Source: Streptomyces ruber (GTDB taxonomy: Bacteria; Actinomycetota; Actinomycetes; Streptomycetales; Streptomycetaceae). From it: 64,000 nucleotides of DNA. Every line of letters starts with the position of its first letter. Position 1 is the stretch's first letter. Position numbers and translations under genes: made by a program. The DNA is taken from the NCBI RefSeq assembly GCF_014648075.1, contig NZ_BMQK01000007.1, positions 1 through 64,000 on the forward strand, given 5' to 3'. Under the pieces are notes generated by a model. That model had not been told where the DNA came from and did no database searches. It saw only the letters and a program-made list of their open reading frames with translations. Shown here in pieces: positions 14,242 to 29,949 of the stretch.

Positions 14242-15950
14242 GCCCCACCACCCTTCCCGCCGGTCCGGAACACGGGCACGTCACCTTCCTCGGTGCCGGA
14301 CCCGGGGATCCGGGACTCCTCACCCTGCGCGCCGTCGAGGCGCTGGCCAACGCGGACGTCCTCGTGGGCGAGCACGAAGTGCTCGACGTGGTCCGCGCCC
14401 ATGCCCGGGCAGGCGTTGCCGTCCTTGACACGGACGCCGGGCCGTCCTCGGACGCGTTCCCCGGCACGGGCACGCCGCAGCTCGCGGTAGTCGACGGTTC
14501 GTCAAAAACCGCTGCAGCCCCCGCTGCTGCCAGGGACGCGGCCAATCTTGTCATGGAGGCCGCGCGCGGCGGCAGGCGGGTCGTCCGTGCGGTGACCGGG
14601 GACCCCGGACTCGACACCTACGCGGCCGGCGAGATGCTCGCGTGCGCCGCCGCGGGCGTGCCGTTCGAGGTGGTGCCCGGCATCGCGTCCGCCGTCGGCG
14701 TGCCCGCGTACGCGGGTGTGCCGCTGCGGGACGCGCAGGGCGCGGACGTACGGTTCGTGGACGCCCGTACGGCCTCCGACCGCTGCTGGACCGAGGTCGG
14801 CGTCTCCGACGGCACCGTCGTCGTCTCCACGACGCTGGACTCCGTCGCGGCGGCGGCCGGTGAGCTGGTGTCGGCGGGCCGCAAGCCGGACACCCCGCTC
14901 ACGGTCACGATCGCCGGTACGACGACCCGGCAGCGCACCTGGACCGCGACCCTCGGCAGCATCGCGCAGACGCTGAAGCAGGCGAAGGTGCTGCCCTCGC
15001 CGGACGGCGGGCGCCCGGTGATAGCCGTGGTCGGCGAGCGGTCCTCCGCCGCGCAGCGCGACCAGCTCTCGTGGTTCGAGTCCAAGCCGCTGTTCGGCTG
15101 GAAGGTGCTCGTCCCGCGGACGAAGGAGCAGGCGGCGTCGCTCTCCGACCAGCTGCGGTCCTACGGGGCCGTGCCGCACGAGGTCCCGACCATCGCCGTC
15201 GAGCCTCCGCGCACGCCCCAGCAGATGGAGCGCGCGGTCAAGGGCCTGGTGACGGGCCGCTACGAGTGGATCGCCTTCACCTCGGTGAACGCCGTCAAGG
15301 CCGTACGGGAGAAGTTCGAGGAGTACGGGCTCGACGCGCGCGCCTTCGCGGGCATCAAGGTCGCGGCGGTGGGCGAGCAGACGGCGAAGGCGCTGGTCGC
15401 CTTCGGCGTGAAGCCGGACCTGGTGCCGAGCGGCGAGCAGTCGGCCGCGGGCCTGCTGGAGGACTGGCCGCCGTACGACCCGGTCTTCGACCCGATCGAC
15501 CGGGTGTTCCTGCCGCGCGCCGACATCGCCACGGAGACCCTGGTCGCCGGGCTGATCGAGTTGGGCTGGGAGGTCGACGACGTCACGGCGTACCGCACGG
15601 TGCGCGCGTCGCCGCCGCCGGCCGAGACGCGTGAGGCGATCAAGGGCGGCGGGTTCGACGCGGTGCTGTTCACCTCGTCGAGCACGGTGCGCAACCTGGT
15701 CGGCATCGCGGGCAAGCCGCACAACGTGACGGTGATCGCCTGTATCGGCCCGGCGACGGCCAAGACCGCCGAGGAGCACGGCCTGCGGGTCGACGTCATG
15801 GCTCCGGAGCCGTCGGTGCACAAGCTGGCGGAGGCGCTGGCGGACTTCGGCGCACGCCGGCGCGCGGCCGCGCTGGAGGCCGGGGACCCGGTGACGCGGC
15901 CGAGCGAGCGGCGGCCGGGGGCTCGGCGGAGGCGGACGACGACGACCTGA
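14238..15950 (+). CDS. hemD: Bifunctional uroporphyrinogen-III methyltransferase-like / uroporphyrinogen-III synthase
   Basis: 570 residues. Residues ~10-255 are a tetrapyrrole (SAM) methylase fold: VTFLGAGPGDPGLLTLRAVEAL, FEVVPGIASAVGVPAYAGVPL and a DGTVVVSTT strand. The catalytic GGDPF-type motif is replaced by AVTGDPGLDTYAAGEM, so the methylase half looks diverged. Residues ~275-545 are HemD (VLVPRTKEQAASLSDQLRSYG, WIAFTSVNAVKAV, VAAVGEQTAKAL, DAVLFTSSSTVRNLVG, IACIGPATAKTAEEHGLRVDVMAPEPSVHKL), which closes hydroxymethylbilane to uroporphyrinogen III. The TTG at 14238 has GGGGGAG upstream and overlaps the hemC stop. It is the last gene of the rex operon. Confidence 0.92.
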   Translation: MSPTTLPAGPEHGHVTFLGAGPGDPGLLTLRAVEALANADVLVGEHEVLDVVRAHARAGVAVLDTDAGPSSDAFPGTGTPQLAVVDGSSKTAAAPAAARDAANLVMEAARGGRRVVRAVTGDPGLDTYAAGEMLACAAAGVPFEVVPGIASAVGVPAYAGVPLRDAQGADVRFVDARTASDRCWTEVGVSDGTVVVSTTLDSVAAAAGELVSAGRKPDTPLTVTIAGTTTRQRTWTATLGSIAQTLKQAKVLPSPDGGRPVIAVVGERSSAAQRDQLSWFESKPLFGWKVLVPRTKEQAASLSDQLRSYGAVPHEVPTIAVEPPRTPQQMERAVKGLVTGRYEWIAFTSVNAVKAVREKFEEYGLDARAFAGIKVAAVGEQTAKALVAFGVKPDLVPSGEQSAAGLLEDWPPYDPVFDPIDRVFLPRADIATETLVAGLIELGWEVDDVTAYRTVRASPPPAETREAIKGGGFDAVLFTSSSTVRNLVGIAGKPHNVTVIACIGPATAKTAEEHGLRVDVMAPEPSVHKLAEALADFGARRRAAALEAGDPVTRPSERRPGARRRRTTTT

Positions 15951-15978
15951 TCGGTCCCTCGTACGCTGCCTGGTGGAA

Positions 15979-16026
15979 CGACGGCTCAGGGGTGTCCCGG
16001 TGTTCGGGGCACCCCTGAGCCGTCGT
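15979..16026. terminator. Bidirectional terminator between hemD and the first STAND gene
   Basis: A stem of ~22 bp (ACGACGGCTCAGGGGTGTCC / complement ending GAGCCGTCGT, one non-Watson-Crick position) with a short GTGTT loop lies between the convergent hemD and STAND-1 genes. Confidence 0.85.
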
Positions 16027-16043
16027 CGTGGGGGTCGGCCCGG

Positions 16044-18173
16044 TCAGCCGGTGGGGTCGGGTTGTGCGGGGGCCTGGTACGAGGGGTCGGGTGGGCGCAG
16101 GGCTTCGGTGATGCCGGTGTCGAGGTGGGTGTCGTAGCCGGTGCGGAAGGCGGTCCGATAGGCGTCGTCACCGAGGAGATGGCGGGTGCGCGCCTCGCAC
16201 GCCTGGCGGGCGGCGATGAGTTCGGGAATGCCCGCCTGAGGGCTGCCGAGGGTGTTCCAGATCTGGTCGGCGAGGCCGAGGAGCCGTGCGGTCTGTGCGG
16301 CGTCCCCGGCGGTGCCGGCGGCGGAGGCGAGCAGCTCGATGGTCACGGCGATGCCGAGGCTGTCATGCAGGCGGCGTTTGCCGTCCAGGGCGTTGCGGGC
16401 GTGGGCCATGGCCTCCTCCGCCCGTCCCAGGGCCAGCGTGGCGAGGGCATGGATGTAGTCGCTCCAGGCGCGGACATGGACCTCGCCGCGCCGGACGCAC
16501 TCGGCGCGCAGTTCCGTGGCGATCACCTCGGCGTCGTCGAACTGTCCGAGGTTGACGCGGACGAAGGCCGAGCTGGCCTGCAACTGGAACCACATCGCGG
16601 CGTACCGCCCGGTGCCGGGCCGAGTGCGCGGCGTCGCGTCGTACACCTCGGCCGCCTGCGCGTGCCGGCCGCACTCCGCGTGACCGACGCCCTCCAGGAA
16701 GGCGGCGGCGAACACGGAGGTGTCGTCGGTGTCCCCGGCCACGGCCTCGCGGAACTCGGCGGCGAGGCGGAGACAGGCCAGTCCGTCGCCCTGGACGACG
16801 GCGACCAGACCGCGGGCCAGCAGGGCCTTGGCGCGGGCCGGCCCGGAGCCCGGGGCCAGGGCCAGGGCCCGGTCCAGATAGTGACGGCCCTCGTTGGAGA
16901 AACCACGGGCGTACCAGAAGAACCACAGCGCCCCGCCCAGCTCCTGCGCGGCGTGCCCGTCTTCCTCGGCGAGGCAGCAGTCGAGTGCGGCCCGCAGGTT
17001 GGCGAACTCCTCGACCGTCCGGTCGTGCCAGGCGACCTGACCGGGCCCGGACCAGGCGGCGTCGGCGGTGCGGGACAGGTCCAGGAAGTGGGCACGGTGG
17101 CGAAGGCGCACCACCCGCTCCTCGTCCAGGCCGCGCAGCCAGTGGGCGCCGTACTCGCGGATGGTGTCGAGCATCCGGTACCGCTCCTGGGCCCCGGTCG
17201 GCTCCCAGACCAGGATCGACTTCTCCACGAGCGCCCCGAGCAGGGCCGGTACCTCCTGGCCGGGCAGCAGCTTGTCAGCGCAGACCTGCCGGGCCGCCTC
17301 CGTGTCGAAGGTGCCGGCGAACACCGACAGCCGCGCCCACAGCAACCGCTCGGCCGGGGTGCACAGCTGGTGGCTCCAGCCGATCGCGGTGCGCAGCGCC
17401 TGGTGCCAGGGCGGGTCGGCGTCGTAGTCCGGGCCGTCGGTGGTGCCGAGGATCGCGTAGCGGTCGTCCAGGCGCCGGTTCAGCTCGGTCACCGGCATCT
17501 CGCGCAGCCGGGCCGCGGCCAGCTCCAGGGCGAGGGGCAGCCCTTCCAGGCGGCGGCACAGGGCGGCCAGTTCGGTGCGGTTGGTGTCGGTGACGGTGAA
17601 GCCGGGTACGGCCTGCGCGGCCCGGTCGGCCAGCAGCACCACCGCGTCCGCCGCCTCGTCCTCGTCGGTCCCGGGCACCGGCAGCGGATCGAGGGTGAGC
17701 ACCTCCTCGGCGGCGGGCAGGCCGAGCGGGCGGCGGCTGGTGGCCAGGATCCGCAGGCCCGGGGCGATCGTCAGCAGCGTCGCCGCCATCTCCCGGCAGT
17801 CCTCGACGAGGTGCTCGCAGGTGTCCCACACCAGCAGTGCCTGTCGCCCGGCCAGGTACTCGGCGACCACCTCCAGCATCGGGCGGGTGGTCTGGTCGGC
17901 CAGCGGCAGTGCCTCGGCGATGGCGTACGGCAGCGCGTCCCTGCCCGCGCCGATCGGGGACAGTTCCACCCACCAGGCCCCGTCCGCGAAGCCCGGTTGC
18001 AGTTCGTCCGCGACCCGCCGGGCCAGCCGGGTCTTGCCCACCCCGCCCACTCCGGTCACGGTCACCAGCCGGTGCTCCCCGCACGCCCGTCTCACCTGCG
18101 CCAGCTCTGCCCGCCGCCCCACCAGGCGATTGCTCTCCTCCGGCAGGTTGCCCACCCGCCGCTCCGCCACCAC
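16044..18173 (-). CDS. STAND ATPase with TPR repeats, copy 1 (no DNA-binding domain)
   Basis: 709 residues, AfsR/COG3903-type signal-transduction ATPase. Residues 8-20 (GNLPEESNRLVGR) precede Walker A GVGGVGKT (41-48); Walker B LLVWDTCEHLVEDC (Asp117); sensor ILATSRRPLGLPA; GLPLALELAAARLRE. A winged-helix segment follows (WSHQLCTPAERLLWARLSVFAGTFDTEAA), then YRMLDTIREYG and ~350 residues of TPR-like helices (ALWFFWYARGFSNEGRHYLDRALAL). Relatives often end in a LuxR HTH; this one stops at DTHLDTGITEALRPP, and no HTH is visible at either end. It probably oligomerises on a ligand and acts on a partner protein. No phosphatase gene is present upstream, unlike copies 2 and 3, though the same promoter block is (18219-18306). 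Confidence 0.82.
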   Translation of the reverse strand: MVAERRVGNLPEESNRLVGRRAELAQVRRACGEHRLVTVTGVGGVGKTRLARRVADELQPGFADGAWWVELSPIGAGRDALPYAIAEALPLADQTTRPMLEVVAEYLAGRQALLVWDTCEHLVEDCREMAATLLTIAPGLRILATSRRPLGLPAAEEVLTLDPLPVPGTDEDEAADAVVLLADRAAQAVPGFTVTDTNRTELAALCRRLEGLPLALELAAARLREMPVTELNRRLDDRYAILGTTDGPDYDADPPWHQALRTAIGWSHQLCTPAERLLWARLSVFAGTFDTEAARQVCADKLLPGQEVPALLGALVEKSILVWEPTGAQERYRMLDTIREYGAHWLRGLDEERVVRLRHRAHFLDLSRTADAAWSGPGQVAWHDRTVEEFANLRAALDCCLAEEDGHAAQELGGALWFFWYARGFSNEGRHYLDRALALAPGSGPARAKALLARGLVAVVQGDGLACLRLAAEFREAVAGDTDDTSVFAAAFLEGVGHAECGRHAQAAEVYDATPRTRPGTGRYAAMWFQLQASSAFVRVNLGQFDDAEVIATELRAECVRRGEVHVRAWSDYIHALATLALGRAEEAMAHARNALDGKRRLHDSLGIAVTIELLASAAGTAGDAAQTARLLGLADQIWNTLGSPQAGIPELIAARQACEARTRHLLGDDAYRTAFRTGYDTHLDTGITEALRPPDPSYQAPAQPDPTG

Positions 18174-18218
18174 CGCGACCGTCCCCTTTCCCGCTCCCGC
18201 CCGCGCTTCCTCGCGCGT

Positions 18219-18306
18219 GGTGACTCGGTGCTAGCAGCGCGCCGGACCCGCCCGCAGCACTTCGGCCGCTTCGCCCGCGGCCCGCCACCGGAAGTGAGAA
18301 AGTGCC
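18219..18306. promoter_or_regulatory. Conserved upstream block, copy 1 (orphan)
   Basis: About 88 bp running from GGTGACTCGGTGCTAGCAGC through CGCAGCACTTCGGCCGCTTC to GTGAGAAAGTGC. It is nearly identical to the blocks at 20555-20642 and 23774-23860. Identity to copy 2 extends left through the STAND start. Here the right side does not lead into a phosphatase gene. Confidence 0.75.
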
Positions 18307-18386
18307 CTGCGTCTTCTTGCTCGGCGCAGGCGGTCGACGACCTGATCGGCGGAGACAGCAGTACATCGCCGTGGGTTCCGGCCTGA

Positions 18387-20510
18387 TCAGCCGGTGGCGC
18401 CGGGCTGTGCGGGGGTGTGGGGTGCCGGGTCGGGCGGGACGAGGGCCTCGGCGATGCCGGTGTCCAGGTCGGTGGCGTGGCCGGTGTCGAACGCGAGCCG
18501 GTAGCCGTGGTCGCCGAGGGCGGTCCGGGCCTGTCGTTCGCACGCCTGGCGGGCGGCCACCCACTGGGGCTGGCCCATCTGCGGCGCCCCCAGGGTGTCC
18601 CAGACCTGATGGGCCAGGCCGAGCAGCCAGGCCGCGCGCTCGGCCTGCCCGGCGGCGCCGGTGGCCACGGCGAGCGTGTCCATGAGCAGACCGATCCCCA
18701 TGCGGTCGTGGAGCCGGTGCTTGATCCGCAACGCCTCCCGGGCGTGGTGCTGCGCCGCGTCGGGCCGGCCGAGCGCCAGTTCGGCCTGGGCCTGGAAGTA
18801 GTCACCGAACGCGCGTGTCCATCGCTCGCCGTGCCGGTCGCACAGCGTGCGCAGCCGCTCGAGGTGGAGCAGCGCCTTCGCGGGCTCTCCCGCGGAGATG
18901 AGAGCGTGGCTACGGACCTGCAGGCCGAAGAGCGGGGCCAGGGTGAGTACGTCGTCCTTCTGCGGCAGGGCGAAGATGCGGTCGGCCACGGCCTCCATGG
19001 CCGCCAGGTCACCCCGCAGGGCCACGGCGCACACGAAGGCCCCCAGGGCGGGATCGAGGGCGTCGTCGCCCTGCTGTTCGGCGGCAGCCAGCCCTTCCTC
19101 GCTGCGGGCGGCGGCGGACTCCGCGTCGCCGAGGCCGACCGCGGCAAGCCCCGCGGCCCACAGGGCCTGGGTGCGCGCCCCGCTCGGTGCGATGTCCGCG
19201 GCCAGGGCGCGGTCCAGGTAGTGCCGGCCCTCCCGGGCGAACCCGCAGGCGTACCAGAAGAACCACAGGGCGCCGGCCAGCTCCAGCGCGGCGTGCCCGG
19301 CCGGCTCGGCCAGGCAGAACTCCAGTGCGGCGCGCAGGTTGTCGTGCTCGTCGGCCATGCGGTCGTACCAGGCGAACTGATGCGGCCCCAGCCAGGCGGC
19401 GTCCCCCGCGCGGGCCAGCGTGAGGAAGTACGCCCGGTGCCGGCACCGCAGCGCTGCCTCCTCGCCCAGCTCGTGCAGCCAGAACGTGCCGAACTCCCGG
19501 ATGGTGTCCAGCATCCGGTACCGCTCGCCGCCCCCTGTCGGCACCCAGGTCAGGATGGACTTGTCCGCCAGCGCGCCCAGCAGCGCCGGCACCTCTTCCC
19601 CGGGCAGCCGCGCGTCGGCGCAGACCTGCCGGGCCGCCTCCGCGTCGAAGCTGCCGGCGAACACCGACAGCCGCGCCCACAGCAACCGCTCGGCCGGGGT
19701 GCACAGCTCATGGCTCCAGCCGATCGCGGTACGCAGCGCCTGGTGCCAGCGCGGACGGACGCCGTAGGTCCCGCCGTCGGTGGTGCCGAGGACCGCGTAG
19801 CGGTCGGCCAGCCGCTTGTTCAGCTCGGTCACCGGCATCTCGCGCAGCCGCGCCGCGGCCAGCTCCAACGCCAGCGGCAGCCCCTCCAGACGGCGGCACA
19901 GGGCGGCCAGCTCGGCGCGGTTGGCGTCGGTGACGGCGAAGCCGGGCACGGCCTGTGCGGCCCGGTCGGCCAGCAGCACCACCGCGTCCGCCGCACCGTC
20001 GTCGTCGGTCCCGGGCACCGGGAGCGGATCGAGGGTGAGCACCTCCTCGGCGGGCAGGCCGAGCGGGCGGCGGCTGGTGGCCAGGATGCGCAGGCCCGGG
20101 GCCGCGGCCAGCAGCGTCTCCGCCGCCTCCCGGCAGTCCTCGACCAGGTGCTCGCAGGTGTTCCACACCAGCAGCGCCTCCCGCCCGGCCAGGTACTCGG
20201 CGATCACCTCCAGCATGGGCCGGGTGCTCTGGTCGGCCAGCGGCAGCACTTCGGCGACCGCGTACGGCAGCGCCTCCATGCCCGCACTGAGCGGGGACAG
20301 CTCCATCCACCACGCTCCGTCCCCGAAGCCCGGCTGGAGCTCGTCCGCCGCCCGCCGGGCCAGCCGGGTCTTGCCGACCCCGCCCACTCCGGTCACCGTC
20401 ACCAGCCGGTGCCGCCTGCACGCCCGCGTCACCTGCGCCAGTTCCGCCCGCCGCCCCACCAGACGATTGCTCTCCTCCGGCAGGTTGCCCACCCGTCGCT
20501 CCGCCGCCAC
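18387..20510 (-). CDS. STAND ATPase with TPR repeats, copy 2
   Basis: 707 residues with the same architecture as copy 1: GNLPEESNRLVGRRAELAQV, Walker A GVGGVGKT, Walker B LLVWNTCEHLVEDC (Asn replaces the Walker B Asp seen in copies 1 and 3), ILATSRRPLGL, GLPLALELAAARLREMP, winged-helix WSHELCTPAERLLWARLSVFAGSF, TPR half and a DTGIAEALVPPDP tail without HTH. The Asp-to-Asn change could weaken ATP hydrolysis. The GTG at 20510 starts MAAERRVGN as in the paralogues. It is divergent from the phosphatase at 20700 across 189 bp that include the conserved block. The nucleotide-binding and winged-helix parts are much closer to copy 1 than the TPR parts. Confidence 0.82.
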   Translation of the reverse strand: MAAERRVGNLPEESNRLVGRRAELAQVTRACRRHRLVTVTGVGGVGKTRLARRAADELQPGFGDGAWWMELSPLSAGMEALPYAVAEVLPLADQSTRPMLEVIAEYLAGREALLVWNTCEHLVEDCREAAETLLAAAPGLRILATSRRPLGLPAEEVLTLDPLPVPGTDDDGAADAVVLLADRAAQAVPGFAVTDANRAELAALCRRLEGLPLALELAAARLREMPVTELNKRLADRYAVLGTTDGGTYGVRPRWHQALRTAIGWSHELCTPAERLLWARLSVFAGSFDAEAARQVCADARLPGEEVPALLGALADKSILTWVPTGGGERYRMLDTIREFGTFWLHELGEEAALRCRHRAYFLTLARAGDAAWLGPHQFAWYDRMADEHDNLRAALEFCLAEPAGHAALELAGALWFFWYACGFAREGRHYLDRALAADIAPSGARTQALWAAGLAAVGLGDAESAAARSEEGLAAAEQQGDDALDPALGAFVCAVALRGDLAAMEAVADRIFALPQKDDVLTLAPLFGLQVRSHALISAGEPAKALLHLERLRTLCDRHGERWTRAFGDYFQAQAELALGRPDAAQHHAREALRIKHRLHDRMGIGLLMDTLAVATGAAGQAERAAWLLGLAHQVWDTLGAPQMGQPQWVAARQACERQARTALGDHGYRLAFDTGHATDLDTGIAEALVPPDPAPHTPAQPGATG

Positions 20511-20554
20511 CGTGACCGTCCCCTTTCCCGCTCCCGCCGCGCTTCCTCGCGCGC

Positions 20555-20642
20555 GGTGACTCGGTGCTAGCAGCGCGCCGGGCCCGCCCGCAGCACTTCG
20601 GCCGCTTCGCCCACGGACCGCCACCGCGAGTGAGATAGTGCT
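20555..20642. promoter_or_regulatory. Conserved upstream block, copy 2 (divergent promoter)
   Basis: The same ~88-bp block lies between STAND copy 2 (minus) and PP2C copy 1 (plus). On the minus strand TAGCAC (20569-20564) could be a -10 element about 55 bp from the STAND start. The GTGAGATAGTGC end lies ~58 bp before the phosphatase start. These assignments are guesses; conservation in three copies is what is seen. Confidence 0.65.
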
Positions 20643-20699
20643 GCGCGCCTCCTTGCTCACAAGCCGGGGCGAGCCGTGTTCATTACAGGAAGGGGTGCG

Positions 20700-21407
20700 G
20701 TGCACGCGGACGGCGCCCGATCGCTGCCGATGCTGATGGCCGAGGCTCGTCTCGCCCTGGCTGTCCGCGTCCGCCCCGCCGGCGGGGTCCGGGTGGGCGG
20801 CGATGTGCACGACGCCGTCATGACACCGGCCGGACCCCGGCTCCTCATCGGCGACGTCAGGGGCCACGGCCCCGCCGCCGCCCCGCTGGCCGCCGTCGTC
20901 CTGGCCGCCTTCCGGGACATCGCGGCCACCGAGGAGGACCCCGTCCGCCTCGTCCGCGCCCTCGATGCCCGCATCCGCCCCCACCTGGGCGAGGAGGACT
21001 TCGTCACCCTCCTCCTCGCCGACCTCCGCCCCAACGAGGTCCGCCTGGTCAACTGCGGCCACCCACCGCCCCTGCGCATCGACGAATGTCTCGTGCCGCT
21101 CGCCCCGCCCCTCCCCTGCCCGCCCCTGGGCCTGGACCCGGAACCCCAGGTCCAGCGCGCCAAGGTCCTTCCCCACCAGCGCCTGCTGCTCCACACCGAC
21201 GGCCTCACCGATGCCCGCGCCGCCGACGACACCTTCTTCTCCCTCGACGAGCACGCCCTCGGCGCCCTGCTCGCGCCCACCCTCGACGAGGCCCTCGACC
21301 GCCTCCTGGACCTCCTTCAGCGGCACATCGGAAGCGCCGCCCCGACCGACGACCTCACCCTGATGCTCCTACAGCCGGCCCCCGGCACCCACCTCTCACC
21401 ACCCTGA
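20700..21407 (+). CDS. PP2C/SpoIIE-type serine phosphatase, copy 1
   Basis: 235 residues, a stand-alone PPM phosphatase domain with no sensor or HATPase module. Metal-binding motifs are complete: GGDVHDAV (for GGDWYDA), GDVRGHGPAAAPLA, FVTLLLADL, LVNCGHPPPLRI, LLLHTDGLTDAR and TDDLTLMLLQP. The family removes phosphate from Ser/Thr of anti-sigma antagonists (RsbU, SpoIIE) or other targets. The GTG at 20700 has GGAAGGGG just upstream, and the same start spacing occurs in copy 2 at 23921. It is divergent from STAND copy 2, suggesting the ATPase controls or senses for the phosphatase. It lacks a membrane segment. Confidence 0.87.
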   Translation: MHADGARSLPMLMAEARLALAVRVRPAGGVRVGGDVHDAVMTPAGPRLLIGDVRGHGPAAAPLAAVVLAAFRDIAATEEDPVRLVRALDARIRPHLGEEDFVTLLLADLRPNEVRLVNCGHPPPLRIDECLVPLAPPLPCPPLGLDPEPQVQRAKVLPHQRLLLHTDGLTDARAADDTFFSLDEHALGALLAPTLDEALDRLLDLLQRHIGSAAPTDDLTLMLLQPAPGTHLSPP

Positions 21408-21562
21408 CGGTTCACGTCGGCAGGGGTGGCCCCGCGGCCACGGCCTCCTCGACGGGTTGAGCCGGCTTCACGGCGAGGCCGGGCCCTCGCCCGTCGGGAT
21501 GTTCCGGGCGGGCCGGGGTCAGCCGGAGGGGCAGCGGTGCGTCGCCGTGGGTTCCTGGCTGG

Positions 21563-23734
21563 TCAGCCGGTGGGTCCGGGCTGTGCGGGGGCGTGGTGCG
21601 AGGGGCCGGACGGGCGCAGGGCTTCGGCGATGCCGGCGTCCGGGTCGGTGTGGTAGCCGCCATGGAAGGCGGCCTTGTAGGCGTCGTCGCCGAGGAGGCG
21701 GCGCGCTTCCGCCTCGCACGCGCGCCGGGCCGCGACGAGTTCGGGCATACCCATCTGAGGGGTGCCGAGGGTGCGCCAGATCCGCTCGGCGACGCCGAGG
21801 AACCGGGCGGCCTGTGCGGCGTTCCGGGCCGCGACGGCCGCGGAGGCGAGCAGGTCGACGGCCATGGCGATACCGAGACTGTCGCGGAGGCGGCGCTTGC
21901 CGTCGAGGGCGGTGCGGGCATGGGTGGCGGCCTCCTCGGCCCGGCCCAGTCCCAGCGCGGCGAGGGCGCGCATGTAGTCGCCCCAGGCGCGGGCCCAGGT
22001 CTCACCGCGCCGACCGCATTCGGCACACAGATCGTCGGCGACGGCCAAGGCGTCGGCGAACTGCCCGAGGTGGACGTGGACGAAGGCCCGTGCGGCGCGT
22101 GCCAGGAACCACGCCGCGTCGTAGCGCCCGCGGCACGGCCGGGTGTGCGCCGATACGTCGAGTACCTCGGCGGCCCGCGTCTGGTGACCGCTGACGGTGA
22201 GACTGCCGCCCTCCAGATAGGCGGCGGCGAGAGGGGCGGTACGGTCGGTGTCGTCGGCCACGGCGGCTCGGAAGGCGGTGGCGAAACGGCTGCTGGTCTC
22301 CGTGTCGCCCTGGGCGATGGCGGCGATGCCGCAGGCCCACAGGGCCTTGGCCCGAGTCGGCCCGGGGGCCGGGTCCAGGGCCAGGGCCCGGTCCAGGTAG
22401 TGGCGGCCGTCCCGGGCGAAGCCGCAGGCGAACCAGAAGAACCACAGCACGCCGCCCATCTCCAGCGCGGTCCCTCCGTCGCCCTCGGCGAGGCAGAAGT
22501 CCAGCGCGGCGCGCAGGTTGGCGTGCTCGGCGGTCATCCCGTCGTACAGGGCCGCCTGGCCGGGGCCGATCCAGGCGGCGTCGGCGGCGCGGGCCAGGAC
22601 CAGGTAGTGGTCGCGGTGCCGACGGCGCACGGTCCGCTCCTCGCCCAGCTCGTGCAGCCAGAAGGCGCCGTATTCACGGAGGGTGTCCAGCATCCGGTAC
22701 CGCTCCCCGGCCCCGGTGGGCGTCCACTCCAGGATCGAGTCCTGCACCAGCGCCGCTACGAGGTGCGGGACCTGGGCGATGGGCAGGCGCTCGTCGGCCA
22801 GCACCCGGCGGGCCGCCTCCATGTCGAAGGAACCGGCGAACACCGACAGCCGCGCCCAGGCGAGCCGTTCGGCCGGGGTGCACAGCTGGTGGCTCCAGCC
22901 GATGGCGGTGCGCAGTGCCTGGTGCCATGGGGGTCCCTCCCTGCTCGAGCGGAGCCGAGAGCTTGGGGGAGGATCGGCGTCGCAGTCCGCGCCGTCGGTG
23001 TCGCCGAGGGTGGTGTAGCGGTCGGCCAGGCGCTGGTTCAGCTCGGCCGGCGGCATCTCGCGCAGGCGGGCCGCGGCCAGCTCCAACGCCAGCGGCAGCC
23101 CCTCCAGACGGCGGCACAGCGCCGCCAGCTCGCCCCGGTTGGCGTCGGTGACCGCGAATCCGGGGACCGCCTCGGCCGCCCGCTCGGTCAGCAGCACCAC
23201 CGCGTCGTTGCCCTCGGCCGCCGCATCGTCGGCCTCGGGCACCGGGAGCGGCTCCAGGGTGACCACCTCCTCGGCGGGCAGGCCGAGCGGGCGGCGGCTG
23301 GTGGCCAGGATGCGCAGGCCCGGGGCCGCGGCCAGCAGCGTCTCCGCCGTCTCCCGGCAGTCCTCGACCAGGTGCTCGCAGGTGTCCCACACCAGCAGCA
23401 GGTCGCGGCCGGCCAGGTACTCGGCGACCACCTCCAGCATGGGCCGGGTGGTCTGGTCGGCCAGGGGCAGCGCCTCGGCGATCGCGTACGGCAGCGCCCC
23501 TCTGCCCGCACTGAGAGGAGACAGCTCCACCCACCACGCTCCGTCCGCGAAGCCCGGCTGCACCTCGCCCGCGACCCGCCGGGCCAGCCGGGTCTTGCCC
23601 ACTCCGCCCACGCCCGTCACCGTCACCAGCCGCGACCGCCGGAACGTCTGCCCCACCTGGGCCAGCTCCGCCCGCCGCCCCACCAGACGGACCGTCTCCC
23701 TTGGCAGGTTCCCCACCCGCCGCTCTTCCGCCAC
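21563..23734 (-). CDS. STAND ATPase with TPR repeats, copy 3 (carries repeat insertion)
   Basis: 723 residues with the copy 1/2 layout: GNLPRETVRLVGRRAELAQV, Walker A GVGGVGKT, Walker B LLVWDTCEHLVEDC, ILATSRRPLGL, GLPLALELAAARLREMPP, winged helix WSHQLCTPAERLAWARLSVFAGSF, TPR half, no HTH. It is longer because a 39-bp piece (within 22925-22973) adds 13 residues, PPSSRLRSSREGP, between DCDADP and PWHQALRTAIGWS; copy 1 reads DYDADPPWHQALRTAIGWS at that point. The reading frame is kept. The GTG at 23734 has AGGAGGAG seven bases upstream. It is divergent from PP2C copy 2. Confidence 0.82.
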   Translation of the reverse strand: MAEERRVGNLPRETVRLVGRRAELAQVGQTFRRSRLVTVTGVGGVGKTRLARRVAGEVQPGFADGAWWVELSPLSAGRGALPYAIAEALPLADQTTRPMLEVVAEYLAGRDLLLVWDTCEHLVEDCRETAETLLAAAPGLRILATSRRPLGLPAEEVVTLEPLPVPEADDAAAEGNDAVVLLTERAAEAVPGFAVTDANRGELAALCRRLEGLPLALELAAARLREMPPAELNQRLADRYTTLGDTDGADCDADPPPSSRLRSSREGPPWHQALRTAIGWSHQLCTPAERLAWARLSVFAGSFDMEAARRVLADERLPIAQVPHLVAALVQDSILEWTPTGAGERYRMLDTLREYGAFWLHELGEERTVRRRHRDHYLVLARAADAAWIGPGQAALYDGMTAEHANLRAALDFCLAEGDGGTALEMGGVLWFFWFACGFARDGRHYLDRALALDPAPGPTRAKALWACGIAAIAQGDTETSSRFATAFRAAVADDTDRTAPLAAAYLEGGSLTVSGHQTRAAEVLDVSAHTRPCRGRYDAAWFLARAARAFVHVHLGQFADALAVADDLCAECGRRGETWARAWGDYMRALAALGLGRAEEAATHARTALDGKRRLRDSLGIAMAVDLLASAAVAARNAAQAARFLGVAERIWRTLGTPQMGMPELVAARRACEAEARRLLGDDAYKAAFHGGYHTDPDAGIAEALRPSGPSHHAPAQPGPTG
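22925..22973. repeat. Dispersed short palindromic repeat, copy 2 (inside STAND copy 3)
   Basis: CCATGGGGGTCCCTCCCTGC then TCGAGCGGAGCCGAGAGCTTGG and GGGAGGA, the inverse orientation of the copy in hemC. Alignment with the uninterrupted paralogue at ~17400-17430 shows a clean gain of 39 bp. Confidence 0.85.
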
Positions 23735-23773
23735 TGCGAACTCCTCCTCGTCCCGACGCGGCTTCTGTCCGCG

Positions 23774-23860
23774 GGTGAGTCGGTGCTAGCAGCACATCGG
23801 GCCCGCCCGCAGAACTTCGGCCGCTTCGCCCACGGCCCGCCGCCGGAGGTGAGAAAGTGC
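23774..23860. promoter_or_regulatory. Conserved upstream block, copy 3 (divergent promoter)
   Basis: The third copy of the conserved block, from GGTGAGTCGGTGCTAGCAGC to GTGAGAAAGTGC, lies between STAND copy 3 and PP2C copy 2. Sequence left of it (leader of the STAND gene) has diverged from copies 1 and 2, so the block itself is under selection or recently shared. Confidence 0.65.
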
Positions 23861-23920
23861 TCCACACCTTTCCGCCCGCAGGGACAGGAGGGGAGTCTGG
23901 TCAGCTCGGGGAGGGGTGTG

Positions 23921-24628
23921 GTGCACGCGGACCGTGCCCGGCCGCTGCCGGCACTGATCGCCGAGGCATCCCTCGCCCTGGCCGTCCGCTCCCGCCCCGC
24001 CGACGGCGCGCGGCTCGGCGGCGACCTGCACGACGCCGTGCTCACCCCGACCGGACCCCGTCTGATCCTCGGCGACGTCAGGGGCCACGGCCCCGCCGCC
24101 TACCCGCTGGCCGCCGCCGTCCTGGCCGCCTTCCGGGACATCGCGGCCACCGAGGAGGACCTCGTCCGTCTCGCCCGCGCCCTCGATGCCCGCCTCCGCC
24201 CCCACCTGGGTGAGGAGGACTTCGTCACCCTCCTCATCGCCGATCTCCTTCCCGACGAGATCCGCCTGGTCAACTGCGGTCATCCACCGCCCCTGCGCAT
24301 CGACCACCGCCTCGCCCGCCTCGCCCCGCCCCAGCCCTCCCCGCCCCTGGGCCTGGACCCGGAACCCCAGGTCCAGCGCGCCAAAGTCCTCCCCCATCAG
24401 CGCCTGCTGCTCCACACCGACGGCCTCACCGACGCCCGTGCCGCCGACGGCACCTTCTTCCCTCTCGACCGGCGCGCCCGCGCCGCTCTGCGCGCCCCCA
24501 CCCTCGATCAGGCCCTCGACCGTCTCCTGGACCTCCTCCACCGGCACACCGGAGACGCTGTCCCGGCCGACGACCTCACCCTGATGCTTCTCCAGCCGGC
24601 CGCCGACACGGACCTTCCACCACTCTGA
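23921..24628 (+). CDS. PP2C/SpoIIE-type serine phosphatase, copy 2
   Basis: 235 residues, about four-fifths identical to the protein at 20700 and exactly as long. The motifs are GGDLHDAV, GDVRGHGPAAYPLA, FVTLLIADL, LVNCGHPPPLRI, GLDPEPQVQRAKVLPHQR, LLLHTDGLTDAR and ADDLTLMLLQP. All Asp residues expected to bind Mn/Mg are present. The start is the second of two adjacent GTGs (23918, 23921), by analogy with copy 1, behind GGGGAGGGG. It is expressed divergently from STAND copy 3. Divergence from copy 1 is concentrated in the N-terminus and the lid region around residues 130-145 and 190-205, so partner specificity may differ. Confidence 0.87.
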   Translation: MHADRARPLPALIAEASLALAVRSRPADGARLGGDLHDAVLTPTGPRLILGDVRGHGPAAYPLAAAVLAAFRDIAATEEDLVRLARALDARLRPHLGEEDFVTLLIADLLPDEIRLVNCGHPPPLRIDHRLARLAPPQPSPPLGLDPEPQVQRAKVLPHQRLLLHTDGLTDARAADGTFFPLDRRARAALRAPTLDQALDRLLDLLHRHTGDAVPADDLTLMLLQPAADTDLPPL

Positions 24629-24632
24629 GGGT

Positions 24633-25520
24633 TCACACCGTCGGCTGTGGCATCCCGACGCCCTCCCCGACGCCCTCCCGGAGGAGGACGGTGCGCAGGT
24701 CGTGCGGCGGGCGGCCGGTGAGCCGCCGGACCGTGTCGGTGGTACGGTCCTCGGCTCCCCCGGCGATGGCCCGGTCCATGGCGGCCAGTATCGCGGCGAA
24801 CTCGGATGGGATGCCGGTGGTGCGCGTCAGGTGGTCGCACATCTCTTCGTACGTCAGTCGCCGGTGGGTCACGGGCCGGCCGGTGACATCGCCGTAGACC
24901 GCGGCGACGTCGTCGTAGCTCAGGGCCTCGGGGCCGGTCAGGACGAGATCGGTGCAGGGTGCGGTGCCGTCCGTGAGGGCGTGCACGGCGACGGCCGCGA
25001 TGTCGCCCGCGTCGACGAAGCCGACACGGCCGTCACCGGTCGCCGTCAGGACGGTGCCGTGCTCGCGGAGGGTGGTGGCGTGGGCGTGGTCCCCGGTGAA
25101 GTTCTGCATGAACCACGAGGGTCGGAGCACCGCCCACTCCGCGAAGAGGCCGGGGAGTGCCTGGTGCACGGCTCCGACGGCCGGGCCACCGGCCGGGACG
25201 GCCGAGGAGCTGAGCAGCACCGCGCGGCGCACTCCGGCGGCGCGGGCCCGCTGGAGGAAGGGGAGCATGACGGCGGCCGGGTCGGGGTCGCCGACCGGCG
25301 GGACGAGGTACACGCGGTCGGTACCGCGGAGGGCGTCGCGGAAGGTGGCGGGGTCGTACCAGTCGAAGCGCGTCGAGTCGGCGCCCGGTACCGGGGTGGC
25401 GCGCCGGGACGCGGCTCTGACGCGGTGCCCGGCGGCGAGCAGGTGCGCGGTGACACGGCTGCCGGTGGTGCCGGTGGCACCGATGACGAGGACGGTGCCC
25501 TCGGTCGCGGTGGTGGTCAT
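24633..25520 (-). CDS. NmrA-like NAD(P)-binding oxidoreductase/sensor
   Basis: 295 residues. VLVIGATGTTGSRVTAHLLAAGH is the GxxGxxG dinucleotide site, ASRRATPVPG the adenosine-phosphate region, VYLVPPVGDP and AVLLSSSAVPAG follow, and VLRPSWFMQNF is typical of NmrA/atypical SDR proteins that reduce quinones or sense NADP. It lacks the YxxxK catalytic pair. It is the second gene of an operon with the SnoaL-like protein (ATGA overlap) under the TetR-type regulator at 26068. It ends only 4 bp from the stop of PP2C copy 2 on the other strand. Confidence 0.85.
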   Translation of the reverse strand: MTTTATEGTVLVIGATGTTGSRVTAHLLAAGHRVRAASRRATPVPGADSTRFDWYDPATFRDALRGTDRVYLVPPVGDPDPAAVMLPFLQRARAAGVRRAVLLSSSAVPAGGPAVGAVHQALPGLFAEWAVLRPSWFMQNFTGDHAHATTLREHGTVLTATGDGRVGFVDAGDIAAVAVHALTDGTAPCTDLVLTGPEALSYDDVAAVYGDVTGRPVTHRRLTYEEMCDHLTRTTGIPSEFAAILAAMDRAIAGGAEDRTTDTVRRLTGRPPHDLRTVLLREGVGEGVGMPQPTV

Positions 25521-25960
25521 CGGGCGCTCCGGGTGAAGTCGGCGGCGGGGTCCTGCAGGGCGAGGGGGTTCCAGTAGTCGCGGTAGGCGGTGATGCGGCC
25601 GTCCCGGACGGTCACGACGACGACGTACGTCATGTCGAAGGGGCTGTCCGTCCGCACCAGGCGCCCCACTCCGCGCATCTCGACGACGATGACCTCGGGG
25701 TCGGTGGTCCGGTGGATCGTCAGGTCGGGGAAGTCGTGCAGGTCGATGTGGTCCGGGTAGTTCCGCATGTACGCCGCGACGGCCTCCCTGCCGTCCAGTC
25801 GGCGAGGCCAGCCCTCGGGAGCGAACGGGAACTCCGCCACGCCGTCCTCGGCCCACAGCCCGACCCAGGCGGGGATGTCCTTCTCCAGCAGCAGGCGCAG
25901 ACTGTGGCGGAAGAGGTCCGCCGGTGCGGTGGGGGTAGGGGTGGTCGGGTTCGAGGACAT
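25517..25960 (-). CDS. SnoaL-like / NTF2-fold protein
   Basis: 147 residues: a Thr/Pro-rich start followed by an NTF2-type cone fold (FRHSLRLLLEKDIPAWVGLW, EFPFAPEGWPRRLDGREAVAAYM, VIVVEMRGVGRLV, YVVVVTVRDGRITAYRDYWNPLA). Such proteins are isomerases, hydrolases or binding proteins for small hydrophobic compounds. The ATG at 25960 has GGAGG six bases upstream; an earlier ATG (25972) lies inside that ribosome site. It is the first gene of the TetR-controlled operon. Confidence 0.85.
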   Translation of the reverse strand: MSSNPTTPTPTAPADLFRHSLRLLLEKDIPAWVGLWAEDGVAEFPFAPEGWPRRLDGREAVAAYMRNYPDHIDLHDFPDLTIHRTTDPEVIVVEMRGVGRLVRTDSPFDMTYVVVVTVRDGRITAYRDYWNPLALQDPAADFTRSAR

Positions 25961-25983
25961 GGGAGCCTCCATGGCATACGATG

Positions 25984-25998
25984 CGGACCGGTGGTCCG
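25984..25998. promoter_or_regulatory. TetR-type operator O1
   Basis: CGGACCGGTGGTCCG, an inverted repeat with half-sites CGGACC/GGTCCG around three bases. It lies just downstream of the predicted start of the minus-strand operon transcript and repeats 35 bp away as O2. Confidence 0.8.
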
Positions 25999-26012
25999 GT
26001 TTCTTGCTCTCG

Positions 26013-26041
26013 AAGATACGGACCGCCGGTCCGGATTGCAA
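26013..26041 (-). promoter_or_regulatory. Promoter of the SnoaL/NmrA operon with operator O2 in its spacer
   Basis: On the minus strand TTGCAA (26041-26036), 17 bases, then TATCTT (26018-26013) form a good sigma-70-type promoter. Its 17-bp spacer contains the second CGGACCGCCGGTCCG repeat (26019-26033). Binding of the divergent TetR protein here would block RNA polymerase directly. Confidence 0.78.
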
Positions 26042-26067
26042 CCCGTAGCTAGCTGGAGAGAATCCGC

Positions 26068-26670
26068 ATGACCGATCGCAAGCCGCGCAAGGACGCAGTC
26101 CGCAACCGTGCCTCCCTGCTCGCCGCCGCCGAGGAGCTCTTCGCGAGCCGCGCACGCCCCGAGGACGTGACCATGTCCGACGTCGCGGCTGCGGCCGGGG
26201 TCGGCAAGGGGACGCTGTTCCGCGCATTCGGGGACCGGACAGGGCTGATCCGCGCGCTGTACGAGGCGCGGTTGGAGCCGTTGAGGGATGCCGTGACCGC
26301 GGGGCCGCCGCCGCTGGGCCCCGGCACCCCGCCGCTGGAGCGAGTCCCCGCGCTACTGGACGCCGTCCTCTGCTTCAAGATCGACCACCGTCACCTCGCG
26401 CTGGCCCTGGAGGCGACGGGCAGCGACAGCCCCTACGACGCGGACCACTACGACCGGTGGCACGCCCTGCTGCGGGACGCGCTGGAGCAGGTGCCCGGGT
26501 TCGGGGGCGGCGACGGCTCCGGTGACTTCGCCGCACACGCGTTGCTTGCCGCCGTGCGGGCCGACATGGTGGAGCACCTGGTGGGGGCGCGTGGGGTGGA
26601 ACGGGAGCGGCTGCGGAGTCAGTTGGCCGACTTCACGGCGCGGGTGCTGGGTCAGCGTTCGGAGGCGTAG
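26068..26670 (+). CDS. TetR/AcrR-family repressor
   Basis: 200 residues. The N-terminal HTH (RNRASLLAAAEELFASR, VTMSDVAAAAGVGKGTLFRAFGDRTGLIRALYE) is a standard TetR domain; the rest is the ligand-binding helical domain with LALALEATGSDSPYDADHYDRW. It is divergent from the SnoaL/NmrA operon, and the 107-bp gap carries two matching operators, so it most likely represses that operon and itself until a small ligand binds. The ATG at 26068 is preceded by GGAGAG. Confidence 0.92.
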   Translation: MTDRKPRKDAVRNRASLLAAAEELFASRARPEDVTMSDVAAAAGVGKGTLFRAFGDRTGLIRALYEARLEPLRDAVTAGPPPLGPGTPPLERVPALLDAVLCFKIDHRHLALALEATGSDSPYDADHYDRWHALLRDALEQVPGFGGGDGSGDFAAHALLAAVRADMVEHLVGARGVERERLRSQLADFTARVLGQRSEA

Positions 26671-26858
26671 GACAGGAAGGTCGCCCAAGCGGTGGGGGTG
26701 AGGGTGAGACGGGGGCCCCGGGGGTCCTTGGAGTCGCGGACGAGGATGTGGGCGGGGGTTGCTGCCACTTCGACGCAGGACGGGCCGTCGTCCGTGCTGT
26801 AGCTGCTTGTTATCCAGTTCAGCTCGGTACCGGTTCCGTCAGAGGGCTTGAGCGTCAT
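26652..26858 (-). CDS. DUF397 small protein
   Basis: 68 residues with the family hallmarks WITSSYSTDDGPSCVEVA, ILVRDSKDPRGPRLTLTPTAW and a terminal FLSYASE. These proteins accompany DUF5753 HTH regulators (WhiJ-type systems) and probably modulate them. The start overlaps the regulator's stop by four bases (ATGA), so the two are coupled. The 3' end runs 19 bp into the end of the convergent TetR gene. Confidence 0.9.
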   Translation of the reverse strand: MTLKPSDGTGTELNWITSSYSTDDGPSCVEVAATPAHILVRDSKDPRGPRLTLTPTAWATFLSYASER

Positions 26859-27685
26859 GACTCTCCCAGCACTTTCTCGATGAAGGCCAGTGACTCCCGT
26901 GGCGCGAGAGCCTGCGCCCGGATGATTCCGTAGCGCATGTCGAGGACCGTGGTTTCCTTCGGGTCGGTGATCACGCGGTTCGTGAGCTGCACTTCGTACA
27001 GACCGATGGACTCGCCGGTCTTGAGTTTGAGTAGCCGGAACGGGCCGCCGAGGCCCGAGTTCTCGTCCCGACTCAGAGGCAGGACCTGGAGGTCGACGTT
27101 ACGTGACCGGGCCGCCGCCAACAGGCGTTCGAGTTGGGCGCGCATCACCATCTTGCCCCCGATCGAGCGGCGGAGCGTCGTCTCGCACAGCACGAAGCTG
27201 AACAAGGGCTCGGCGTTCAGGGCTTCCTGCCGGGCCAGGCGTGCGGTGACCCGCCGTTCCAGTTCCTCCTCCGGGAACGGCGGTCGGCGAGAGGTGAAGA
27301 CGGCTCGTGCGTAGTCCTCGGTCTGGAGCAGGCCGTCCACGACCGAGTTGTTGTACGAGCAGATCTCGACGGCCCCCGCCTCCAGGCGTTTCACGTCCCG
27401 CACCCTCTTCGGGTACCGGACCTCCGCCACGTCCTCCTTCAGCGCCGCGATCCTGCCGCTCGCCGCGAGTGCCTCGTCCGCCTGGTCCAAGTACTCGGGC
27501 CGGGGGATGCGCCGTCCCCGCTCCACCGACGAGACCAGTTCCTCCCCGTACCCGATCGCCGCTCCGAACTCCGCCTGTGTGAGGCCGGCCGCCTCGCGCC
27601 ACAGCTTCAGCTGCCGTGCGACCGTCCGCACCACGGCCCCGGCCTCGGCGTCCTCCAGCTCCGCATCCCAGTCGTTCACGTCCAC
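26855..27685 (-). CDS. XRE-family regulator with DUF5753 sensor domain (WhiJ-like)
   Basis: 276 residues. An N-terminal Cro/C1 HTH (ARQLKLWREAAGLTQAEFGAAIGYGEELVSSVERGRR) is followed by the DUF5753 domain: EICSYNNSVVDGLLQTEDYARAVF, ERRVTARLARQEAL, FVLCETTLRRSIGG, VLPLSRDENSGLGGPFRLLKL and YVQL-like EVQLTNRVITDP. Multiple such WhiJ-type regulators control development in Streptomyces. The GTG at 27685 has GGAGG five bases upstream; a second GTG at 27679 is possible. It forms a triad with the DUF397 protein and the divergent ATP-binding protein. Confidence 0.9.
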   Translation of the reverse strand: MDVNDWDAELEDAEAGAVVRTVARQLKLWREAAGLTQAEFGAAIGYGEELVSSVERGRRIPRPEYLDQADEALAASGRIAALKEDVAEVRYPKRVRDVKRLEAGAVEICSYNNSVVDGLLQTEDYARAVFTSRRPPFPEEELERRVTARLARQEALNAEPLFSFVLCETTLRRSIGGKMVMRAQLERLLAAARSRNVDLQVLPLSRDENSGLGGPFRLLKLKTGESIGLYEVQLTNRVITDPKETTVLDMRYGIIRAQALAPRESLAFIEKVLGES

Positions 27686-27822
27686 CGCCCCCTCCCGCCG
27701 AGCTGTTCTCTGTCCAACGCGCGCGCCCGCAGCCGGTCATGCCGTACCGCCCGGACGCAACCGGGCGCGGCCCGGACAGCCATCCGTCGCACGGGGGCAC
27801 CTTCTTCACAGGCTACGCAGGT

Positions 27823-28419
27823 GTGAACACGCTGAGTGATGTGAATGAGCGAAGTGCCACGCCCGACATCCCGTCCCCGCCGCACCGGTTCACCGTGCCG
27901 CTCTCCGCCACGCGCCGTGGAGCGCGCCTCGCCCGGCTGCTCGCGACCGAGCAACTGCTGGACTGGGGGCTGCAACCCGACCCGGCCCGGCTCGTCGTCG
28001 CGGAACTCGCGGCGAACGCCGTGCTGCACGGCCGTGTCGCCGGCCGCGGCTTCCGCCTCACCCTCTCCGTCATGGGGTCCGGCACGCTGCGTATCGAGGT
28101 CGCCGACACTCGCGGTGATCGGTTGCCCGCGCCGTCGACAGCGGTAGGCGAAGGGCTCCCCGAGTCCGGACACGGCCTGCGTCTCGTCGAGGAGTTGGCG
28201 GACCGATGGGGCGTACGGATCGGGCCGGTGCCGGCGAAGACCGTATGGGCCGAACTCGATTCTGGAGTCTCGGCCTCGCGGGAGCCCTCGTCACCGGAGC
28301 CCGGAAACACGGGAGCCGGGGGCGCAGCGGCCGGGGCGGCGGGCGGTCAAGGAGTAAAGAACTCGGGGAAAGAACCCTCCCAACCAGCCAAACCTCTCGT
28401 ACGTCACCCGCGGGGGTGA
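27823..28419 (+). CDS. HATPase-type ATP-binding regulator (anti-sigma-like)
   Basis: About 198 residues. A GHKL/HATPase_c_2 domain is clear: HRFTVPLSATRRGARLARLL, RLVVAELAANAVLHG (N-box), LRIEVADTRGDRLP (G1) and SGHGLRLVEELADRWGV (G2). It has no phospho-accepting His. Relatives are RsbW-like kinases or regulators paired with DUF5753/DUF397 genes, as here. The start is uncertain: GTG at 27823 or GTG at 27841; neither has a strong ribosome site. The C-terminal ~50 residues are low in complexity. Confidence 0.82.
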   Translation: MNTLSDVNERSATPDIPSPPHRFTVPLSATRRGARLARLLATEQLLDWGLQPDPARLVVAELAANAVLHGRVAGRGFRLTLSVMGSGTLRIEVADTRGDRLPAPSTAVGEGLPESGHGLRLVEELADRWGVRIGPVPAKTVWAELDSGVSASREPSSPEPGNTGAGGAAAGAAGGQGVKNSGKEPSQPAKPLVRHPRG

Positions 28420-28517
28420 ATCGGGGCGATCTGGCTGGCGCGTCGGCGGAACGGGCGGGCAGGCTCGGCCCGGAGAGCTACACAGACCGAACTTCAGACA
28501 ATCCGCAGACATGCGAC

Positions 28518-28553: not shown

Positions 28554-28582
28554 TGACCACCAAGGAAGCAGGACCTTCCCTC

Positions 28583-29948: not shown

Positions 29949-29949
29949 C

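Follow-up and report, generated by a model that had tools for sequence, protein, structure and literature searches.

In Bacillus, PPM phosphatases of sigma-factor partner switching are acted on by separate proteins: RsbT, a small kinase-like protein, acts on RsbU, and RsbQ, an alpha/beta hydrolase, acts likewise on RsbP. STAND NTPases joined to a TPR sensor are known from regulators such as the STAND transcription activator MalT, and the partner-switching protein Rv1364c of Mycobacterium tuberculosis carries sensor and STAS parts along with its enzymatic ones. In the RsbT-RsbU system, the separate protein acts in trans on the phosphatase, which leads to dephosphorylation of a STAS protein and release of the sigma factor (PMC12143880). 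Here we describe an array of five genes (positions 16044 to 24628) in a window of 64,000 nucleotides of Streptomyces ruber (contig NZ_BMQK01000007.1, positions 1 to 64,000), in which STAND ATPases without a helix-turn-helix (HTH) domain (A1 to A3) stand beside stand-alone phosphatases of the RsbU/SpoIIE type (P1 and P2). We infer, giving it an even chance, that the STAND ATPase regulates the RsbU-type phosphatase in trans and in this way feeds sigma-factor partner switching.

The presumed regulator differs from RsbT and RsbQ in that it is a STAND ATPase of ∼700 amino acids with its own TPR sensor. A1 to A3 have the STAND NTPase and TPR sensor in common with AfsR, but they are without the SARP/BTAD or HTH output domain. 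Rv1364c (3ke6) has phosphatase and kinase in one chain, whereas the window phosphatases stand alone. In the conflict systems of multicellular bacteria, STAND NTPases are encoded with separate partners and Streptomyces is among the carriers; in the main text of the source, PP2C is mentioned once, for GAP1-N2 GTPase systems, where it accompanies a vWA protein and a protein kinase and not a STAND ATPase (PMC7159879). The author of an earlier note on this DNA, made from the sequence without searches, knew of no described system with such a pairing. No description of a STAND ATPase paired with a SpoIIE/PP2C phosphatase was found in the open-access literature, as far as its texts were accessible, with subscription journals mostly outside this coverage. 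Neither STAND regulators nor RsbU-type phosphatases activated in trans are new in themselves; what appears to be new is their pairing. If the pairing is functional, the ATPase family, for which no assigned output was encountered, gains an output, and sigma-factor partner switching gains a new type of input. The two proteins would then be a small, soluble system that reports STAND activation as phosphatase activity.

The genes are in the order A1-A2-P1-A3-P2, with the ATPases on the minus strand and the phosphatases on the plus strand, as was confirmed when coordinates and strands were rechecked. A1 (16044 to 18173; 709 amino acids; Walker A GVGGVGKT, Walker B LLVWD) has no adjacent phosphatase. 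A2 (18387 to 20510; 707 amino acids) is divergent from P1 (20676 to 21407, with a start at 20676 or 20700), and A3 (21563 to 23734; 723 amino acids) is divergent from P2 (23900 to 24628, with a start at 23900 or 23918), each across ∼165 to 190 bp. The earlier note had correctly placed three paralogous ATPases on one strand. Its "triplicated module" does not describe three ATPases with two phosphatases. The phosphatases are, as it said, oriented divergently from two of the ATPases, but they are not near-identical, with 80% identity in protein and 87% in DNA. The GC content of 72 to 75% is one at which long open reading frames arise cheaply. However, A2, P1, A3, and P2 are more than chance frames, because they are kept in Streptomyces poonensis and the phosphatases strongly match a curated family. 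The ratios of nonsynonymous to synonymous substitution rates (dN/dS) between the window and S. poonensis were 0.28 (A2), 0.45 (P1), 0.43 (A3), and 0.35 (P2), and all four genes are under purifying selection. Two long open frames, 18387 to 21326 on the minus strand (979 codons) and 21593 to 24628 on the plus strand (1,011 codons), were considered as fusions and rejected as high-GC shadows of genes on the opposite strand.

Pairing of the two genes, which the earlier note had described from this DNA, was found widely in a genus sample, a collection of named loci, and a class-wide sample. Phosphatase relatives at E ≤ 1e-40 were present in 21 of 295 genomes of the genus, own genome included, and 12 of the 21 non-own phosphatase loci adjoin an ATPase of the A1 to A3 family. 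From the named collection, the analysis used the best 80 of 547 phosphatase-related loci, with flanks reaching 6 kb at most. An ATPase was nearby in 24 of the 29 loci with at least 45% phosphatase identity versus none of the 51 loci below that line, which was set after inspection of these data (Fisher P = 7e-16). Flanks were shortened at 15 of the 80 loci, 4 of them paired (L137, L138, L144, and L155) and 11 unpaired. In the class-wide check, 394 genomes were searched and 20 loci were taken, with two of the 18 rows following the clade members omitted as coming from genomes already represented. All four non-own loci at 47 to 60% identity adjoin an ATPase versus 0 of 16 at 38 to 45%; the four come from two genomes that the genus sample does not include, one of which contributes three. 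Genes were called with a simple GC-frame caller, which missed L347, recovered by tblastn. Loci of the genus and named samples overlap (L092 and L142, and L088 and L150, are apparently the same contigs, judging by size and position), and the sets were not summed.

The 37 paired loci, among which both L092 and L142 are counted, fall into 16 contexts when grouped on the flanking genes that they share (15 if the cut is loosened), and the largest context, with 17 loci, probably represents one ancestral position. L141 looks degraded, with a partial ATPase frame, and was not called as a pair in this analysis. Carriers of the pair span at least three genera and include Nonomuraea, Actinomadura, and a Streptosporangiales metagenome bin besides Streptomyces. 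The pair occurs in three orientations (divergent, phosphatase then ATPase, and ATPase then phosphatase); most of the pairs examined are divergent, and both orders are represented among the co-directional pairs (L086, L089, L093, L135, and L202; L137). The gene caller found both partners in 36 of the loci, and in 35 of these the closest partners are immediate neighbors; L151 has one gene between them. The protein distances of the partners are correlated across the 16 contexts, with one representative each (Mantel r = 0.73; P = 5e-5), and within the 11 Streptomyces contexts (r = 0.76). Adjacency of ATPase and phosphatase is specific to one phosphatase clade and goes together with correlated divergence of the partners. 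Membership of the phosphatase clade is a much better predictor of an ATPase neighbor than membership of the ATPase clade is of a phosphatase neighbor.

PPM phosphatases have acidic metal-binding motifs of the forms GGD, GDVxGHG, TDG, and DD. G40, G41, D42, D59, D174, D224, and D225 were invariant across an 11-row alignment of the phosphatases. P1 and P2 match PF07228 (E = 1.6e-35 and 3.4e-36, respectively), with one further weak stray match each in Pfam searched to E = 1. At E ≤ 0.001, the phosphatase profile matched a single Protein Data Bank sequence, the RsbU-RsbW part of Rv1364c. A structural model of P2 (predicted local distance difference test score [pLDDT], 83.2; predicted template-modeling score [pTM], 0.83) was matched by Foldseek to 3pu9, 3ke6 (the same part of Rv1364c, a top match), and 5ucg, with SiaA and SpoIIE among the matches. 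In the general-stress RsbU class, control is reported to pass through an alpha-helical linker ahead of the PPM domain, which RsbT orders when it activates RsbU in trans (PMC12143880). P1 and P2 seem to be without this linker; the fold in the P2 model starts at about residue 15, and residues 1 to 14 have pLDDT values below 50. Such phosphatases are unlikely to be controlled in cis, and one would expect them to have a separate regulator.

The earlier note had stressed that the phosphatases lack any sensor domain, and no N-terminal sensor domain was found in P1 or P2 with Pfam. The argument is weaker than claimed, since this absence looks like a derived, local loss. In a simple hydropathy scan, hydrophobic N-terminal segments were present in the phosphatases of 14 of 15 representative paired loci outside the window lineage (the exception is L098), and it is this longer, usually hydrophobic N-terminal part of their relatives, a membrane or sensor region, that P1 and P2 are without. 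P2 had 21 matches in its own genome, with two places split into two matches. A third copy in the same genome (G000:C10, 47882 to 48405; positions 7886 to 8406 of L116) is in two frames, 66 to 68% identical to P2, and lies near a TerD-like gene; this and the gene names hem, NmrA, SnoaL, TetR, XRE, fibronectin-like, phosphotransferase-like, and Ser/Thr kinase used below are by-eye readings of the proteins. Solitary phosphatase copies without the membrane part are found in Streptomyces fumigatiscleroticus (L133) and Streptomyces sclerotialus (L134).

A3 is 71% identical to A1 and 65% identical to A2, and the next match in the genome, SARP-like by eye, is 37% identical. Pfam searches of the ATPases to E = 1 gave NTPase-type matches (AAA_16, AAA_22, NB-ARC, nSTAND, and similar families) and weak TPR matches, with those to AAA_16 and NB-ARC near or below the curated cutoffs, and no HTH or SARP/BTAD output domain in A1 to A3. 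Assignment to a named equivalog was rejected, as all NCBIfam matches, including FxSxx_TPR and AfsR, were below threshold. The AlphaFold model of A3 (mean pLDDT, 78.8; pTM, 0.56) consists of the NTPase and a helical superhelix, the predicted TPR region, at residues 366 to 706 with pLDDT mostly above 80. Residues 290 to 360 between them, where a winged-helix arm would fall, are modeled at pLDDT below 50. The model has no fold after residue 706, and a hidden HTH was rejected on this ground and by Pfam. The best Foldseek match of the model is 6mfv, a STAND protein with TPR, with TM-scores of only 0.38 and 0.41. A profile built from A3 and 22 relatives and the A3 model match AfsR, Apaf-1, plant NLRs, and 6mfv, the fold matches having low whole-length TM-scores; the AfsR match spans profile positions 4 to 342.

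The absence of an HTH from the ATPases, which the earlier note had also invoked, stands, but it says less than was claimed, since it is usual for this family. Judged with a LuxR-type motif, an HTH was present in 1 of 104 central ATPases, a set that is biased by having been ranked by similarity to A3 or chosen via the phosphatase. Two further HTH-bearing ATPases (L108 and L109) were seen.

Among A1 to A3, identity is 82 to 88% in residues 1 to 240 (NTPase) versus 26 to 54% in residues 471 to 600 (sensor), so that the sensors have diversified while the NTPase engine has been largely kept. In A3, this fastest-diverging TPR stretch, the presumed ligand-specificity region (21935 to 22324 on the minus strand, computed from residue numbers), is 76% identical to the ATPase of L106 in another genome, 54% to A1, and 28% to A2, whose sensor is unlike those of A1 and A3. 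The NTPase of A3, in turn, is 82 to 84% identical to those of A1 and A2 and 68% to that of L106. The ATPase of L112, from another genome and without a phosphatase, is 81 to 84% identical to the window ATPases in the NTPase and 28 to 38% in the sensor. Sharing of the NTPase without the sensor points to exchange between lineages or uneven divergence and does not prove homogenization within the array. The Walker A motif GVGGVGKT is present in A1, A2, and A3. The Walker B Asp is kept in A1 and A3 and is Asn in A2 (residue 117; codon 20160 to 20162 on the minus strand, computed from the residue number). Asn is also found in the A2 orthologues of S. poonensis, S. sclerotialus, and S. fumigatiscleroticus, with Asp in 122 of 125 aligned ATPases. 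The earlier note's proposal of a split system, in which the ATPase senses and the phosphatase delivers the output, is partly supported and, among the readings of the locus, has the best support. However, amplification in tandem, which was part of that proposal, fits less well than diversification, because the NTPases are alike, the TPR sensors differ strongly, and the Asp-to-Asn change of A2 is conserved.

A conserved, promoter-like block lies upstream of each ATPase on the minus strand, at 18174 to 18322, at 20511 to 20660 between A2 and P1, and at 23735 to 23880 between A3 and P2. As a related block also stands ahead of the phosphatase-less ATPases in L112 and L107, the block seems to be ATPase specific. 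It was rejected as an operator shared genome-wide, as only the three window copies stand out among the 40 matches listed. No sigma-70-like promoters or terminators were found in the region, a result that is uninformative for Streptomyces.

The sequences themselves show the genes and their domains, the clade-specific adjacency, the correlated divergence, the diverging sensors on a common NTPase, and the purifying selection. In the trans-activation model, the contact between the proteins, the direction of control, the oligomerization, the STAS substrate, and the ligand are all inferred. The ATPase would bind a cytoplasmic ligand via its C-terminal TPR superhelix, exchange ADP for ATP, and oligomerize. 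The active ATPase would then switch on, in trans, the PPM phosphatase of the RsbU/SpoIIE class, which would remove the phosphate from a STAS anti-sigma-factor antagonist and thereby cause an RsbW-type kinase to let go of a sigma factor. In Bacillus, the part of the ATPase is played by RsbT toward RsbU and by RsbQ toward RsbP. In the window lineage, the phosphatase may have lost its membrane or linker part, which would make the ATPase its likely sole input, and the ATPase genes may have multiplied with different sensors. Activation of RsbU by RsbT in trans provides a precedent for a separate regulator of a PPM phosphatase (PMC12143880).

The main rivals to trans-activation are that the two proteins are coregulated neighbors without contact and that the phosphatase acts on the ATPase. 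According to the former, which we consider unlikely, both proteins would belong to one stress or developmental pathway, with neither acting on the other. Such coregulation would suit the divergent arrangement and common upstream region of most examined pairs, and in its favor are also the upstream block that seems to be the ATPase's alone and the many ATPases and several phosphatases that manage without a partner. However, co-directional pairs in both orders indicate that what is conserved is not a shared divergent promoter, and clade-specific pairing in about 16 contexts calls for a tighter link. Adjacency and correlated divergence suit either direction of control, and the substrate of the phosphatase might instead be the STAND ATPase itself or a kinase that targets it, in which case the phosphatase would reset the ATPase as a counterpart to the AfsR kinases. 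AfsR is phosphorylated by Ser/Thr kinases, and the ATPase is related to AfsR by sequence. In addition, a phosphotransferase-like gene recurs in the largest syntenic group (e.g., L094, L096, and L100). This reverse direction seems to us rather improbable because the known bacterial substrates of the RsbU/SpoIIE class are STAS proteins (PMC11418112), some other ATPases of the family adjoin STAS and RsbW-type genes, and no recurrent Hanks-type kinase gene was seen by eye next to the pairs; L085 and L087 have a Ser/Thr kinase gene but no ATPase.

The STAND architecture, which resembles Avs3 and plant NLRs, also brings to mind a conflict or antiphage module whose NLR-like sensor would set off the phosphatase, its effector, and a fast-diverging sensor, copy-number differences between species, and a variable insertion site would be in keeping with it. 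Yet no meaningful PADLOC match was obtained (best E = 0.024; none for the phosphatases), dN/dS values of 0.28 to 0.45 carry no sign of an arms race, and to our knowledge a PPM phosphatase is not a typical cell-killing effector, so that this explanation is very improbable. Chance or hitchhiking adjacency of two abundant gene families is strongly disfavored and has next to no probability in our estimate: Streptomyces genomes have many SpoIIE genes, as the P2 matches in this one illustrate, and ATPase matches at E ≤ 1e-90 are common in Streptomyces (218 of 295 genus genomes), but the ATPase is absent from all of the less similar SpoIIE loci of both the named and the class-wide samples (0 of 51 and 0 of 16) while being present at 24 of 29 and 4 of 4 loci within the clade.

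A number of observations weigh against trans-activation. Most of the family ATPases examined have no signaling neighbor. Among the 13 non-own ATPases closest to A3, only those of L086, L089, and L093 are beside a window-type phosphatase; L109 has a PAS-SpoIIE-HATPase neighbor, and the other nine have no SpoIIE gene at offset ±1, although one of them, L113, is near a contig end. The L113 ATPase and the lone L088 phosphatase come from the same genome, both near contig ends, and may be one pair split by the assembly. Paired and unpaired ATPases are intermixed on the tree, and L219 and L250, nested in a paired group, have no phosphatase. Phosphatases also occur alone, at 9 of the 21 non-own genus loci (L085, L087, L088, L091, and L101 to L105) and at five of the named loci with at least 45% identity (L133, L134, L150, L153, and L159); in L088 and L150, the contig ends where the phosphatase starts. 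The pairs have no conserved third neighbor: with profiles on the genes called in the 37 loci, STAS was found only at L140 and HATPase only at L135, in a scan for which the gene caller missed the window's own HATPase gene. At L140 (Actinomadura), the STAS gene, confirmed by Pfam, directly follows the paired phosphatase, but such a neighbor is not pair specific, since the unpaired phosphatase L358 is also beside one. No ATPase-phosphatase fusion was found among 106 and 49 ATPase genes and 48 and 41 phosphatase genes, respectively, of two overlapping gene sets. Species history may in part inflate the Mantel correlation. Finally, among 80 loci ranked by their ATPase, a partner-switching gene stands at offset ±1 in only 12, of which 10 belong to one clade with MEDS-domain neighbors.

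At L135 (5830 to 12671) of Streptomyces flavofungini, three SpoIIE-type genes flank a single STAND ATPase, and one of the three also has a HATPase match.

The 80 loci ranked by their ATPase, which were drawn from the genus-wide ATPase matches, and the earlier loci make up an ATPase-centered set of 104 loci, of which 12 were chosen through the phosphatase. Partner-switching genes are concentrated directly beside the family ATPases, with 25 of 204 slots at offset ±1, 11 of 187 at ±2, and 6 of 528 at offsets of 3 or more. The HATPase, STAS, and MEDS profiles used came from seeds of our own choice, and Pfam was applied to key cases only, in which it confirmed MEDS-STAS, MEDS-HATPase_c_2, PAS-SpoIIE-HATPase, and receiver-SpoIIE neighbors. 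The two non-MEDS cases among the 12 are a receiver-SpoIIE gene (L213) and a SpoIIE gene (L275). The MEDS clade, with genes for MEDS-STAS and/or MEDS-HATPase, is a possible second link from STAND proteins to partner switching. It was not accepted as repeated evidence and was counted once, as it is one clade with 9 of its 10 loci in one context.

More broadly, these ATPases might form an undescribed class of signaling proteins in which a STAND ATPase resembling NLRs and Apaf-1 serves as a ligand-gated switch on sigma-factor partner switching, neither killing the cell nor binding DNA. The switch would work through an RsbU-type phosphatase in one lineage and through STAS/RsbW-type proteins in another, and the tandem copies would combine one engine with different sensors, A2 being locked by its Walker B change, so that several inputs lead to one output. 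We put this wider proposal forward tentatively, as somewhat less than probable.

The HTH-less STAND ATPases beside MEDS-STAS and/or MEDS-HATPase genes are those of L211 (2551 to 6575) and likewise of L210, L212, L222 to L224, L227, L230, L233, and L245. A further clade of 21 ATPases (L214 to L218, L220, L221, L225, L226, L228, L229, L231, L232, L234, and L236 to L242) has no partner-switching gene at offset ±1, and several of its members adjoin a gene for a fibronectin-III-like lipoprotein.

The window is the start of a 326-kb contig (G000:C7) within a 7.9-Mb genome, and its closest named relatives at this locus are Streptomyces. The array is inserted between hemD (end at 15950) and hemB (start at 30512). 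The hemD-hemB gap is at most 0.85 kb in 18 of 24 relatives, and the two genes are not within 1.5 kb in the other 6, so that the array occupies a site of variable insertions. Besides the array, the interval from 15950 to 30512 holds ∼6 kb of other genes (NmrA-like, SnoaL-like, TetR, and XRE genes, and HATPase_c_2 by Pfam). The XRE-type regulator and the RsbW-like HATPase_c_2 gene (26855 to 28419) lie at most 4 kb from P2, in what we take to be probably a common Streptomyces XRE/HATPase arrangement rather than a part of the module. Related arrays are present in S. poonensis, S. sclerotialus, and S. fumigatiscleroticus, with a further ATPase (A4) after P2. In S. fumigatiscleroticus, A3 is truncated and the array adjoins a hemD-like gene.

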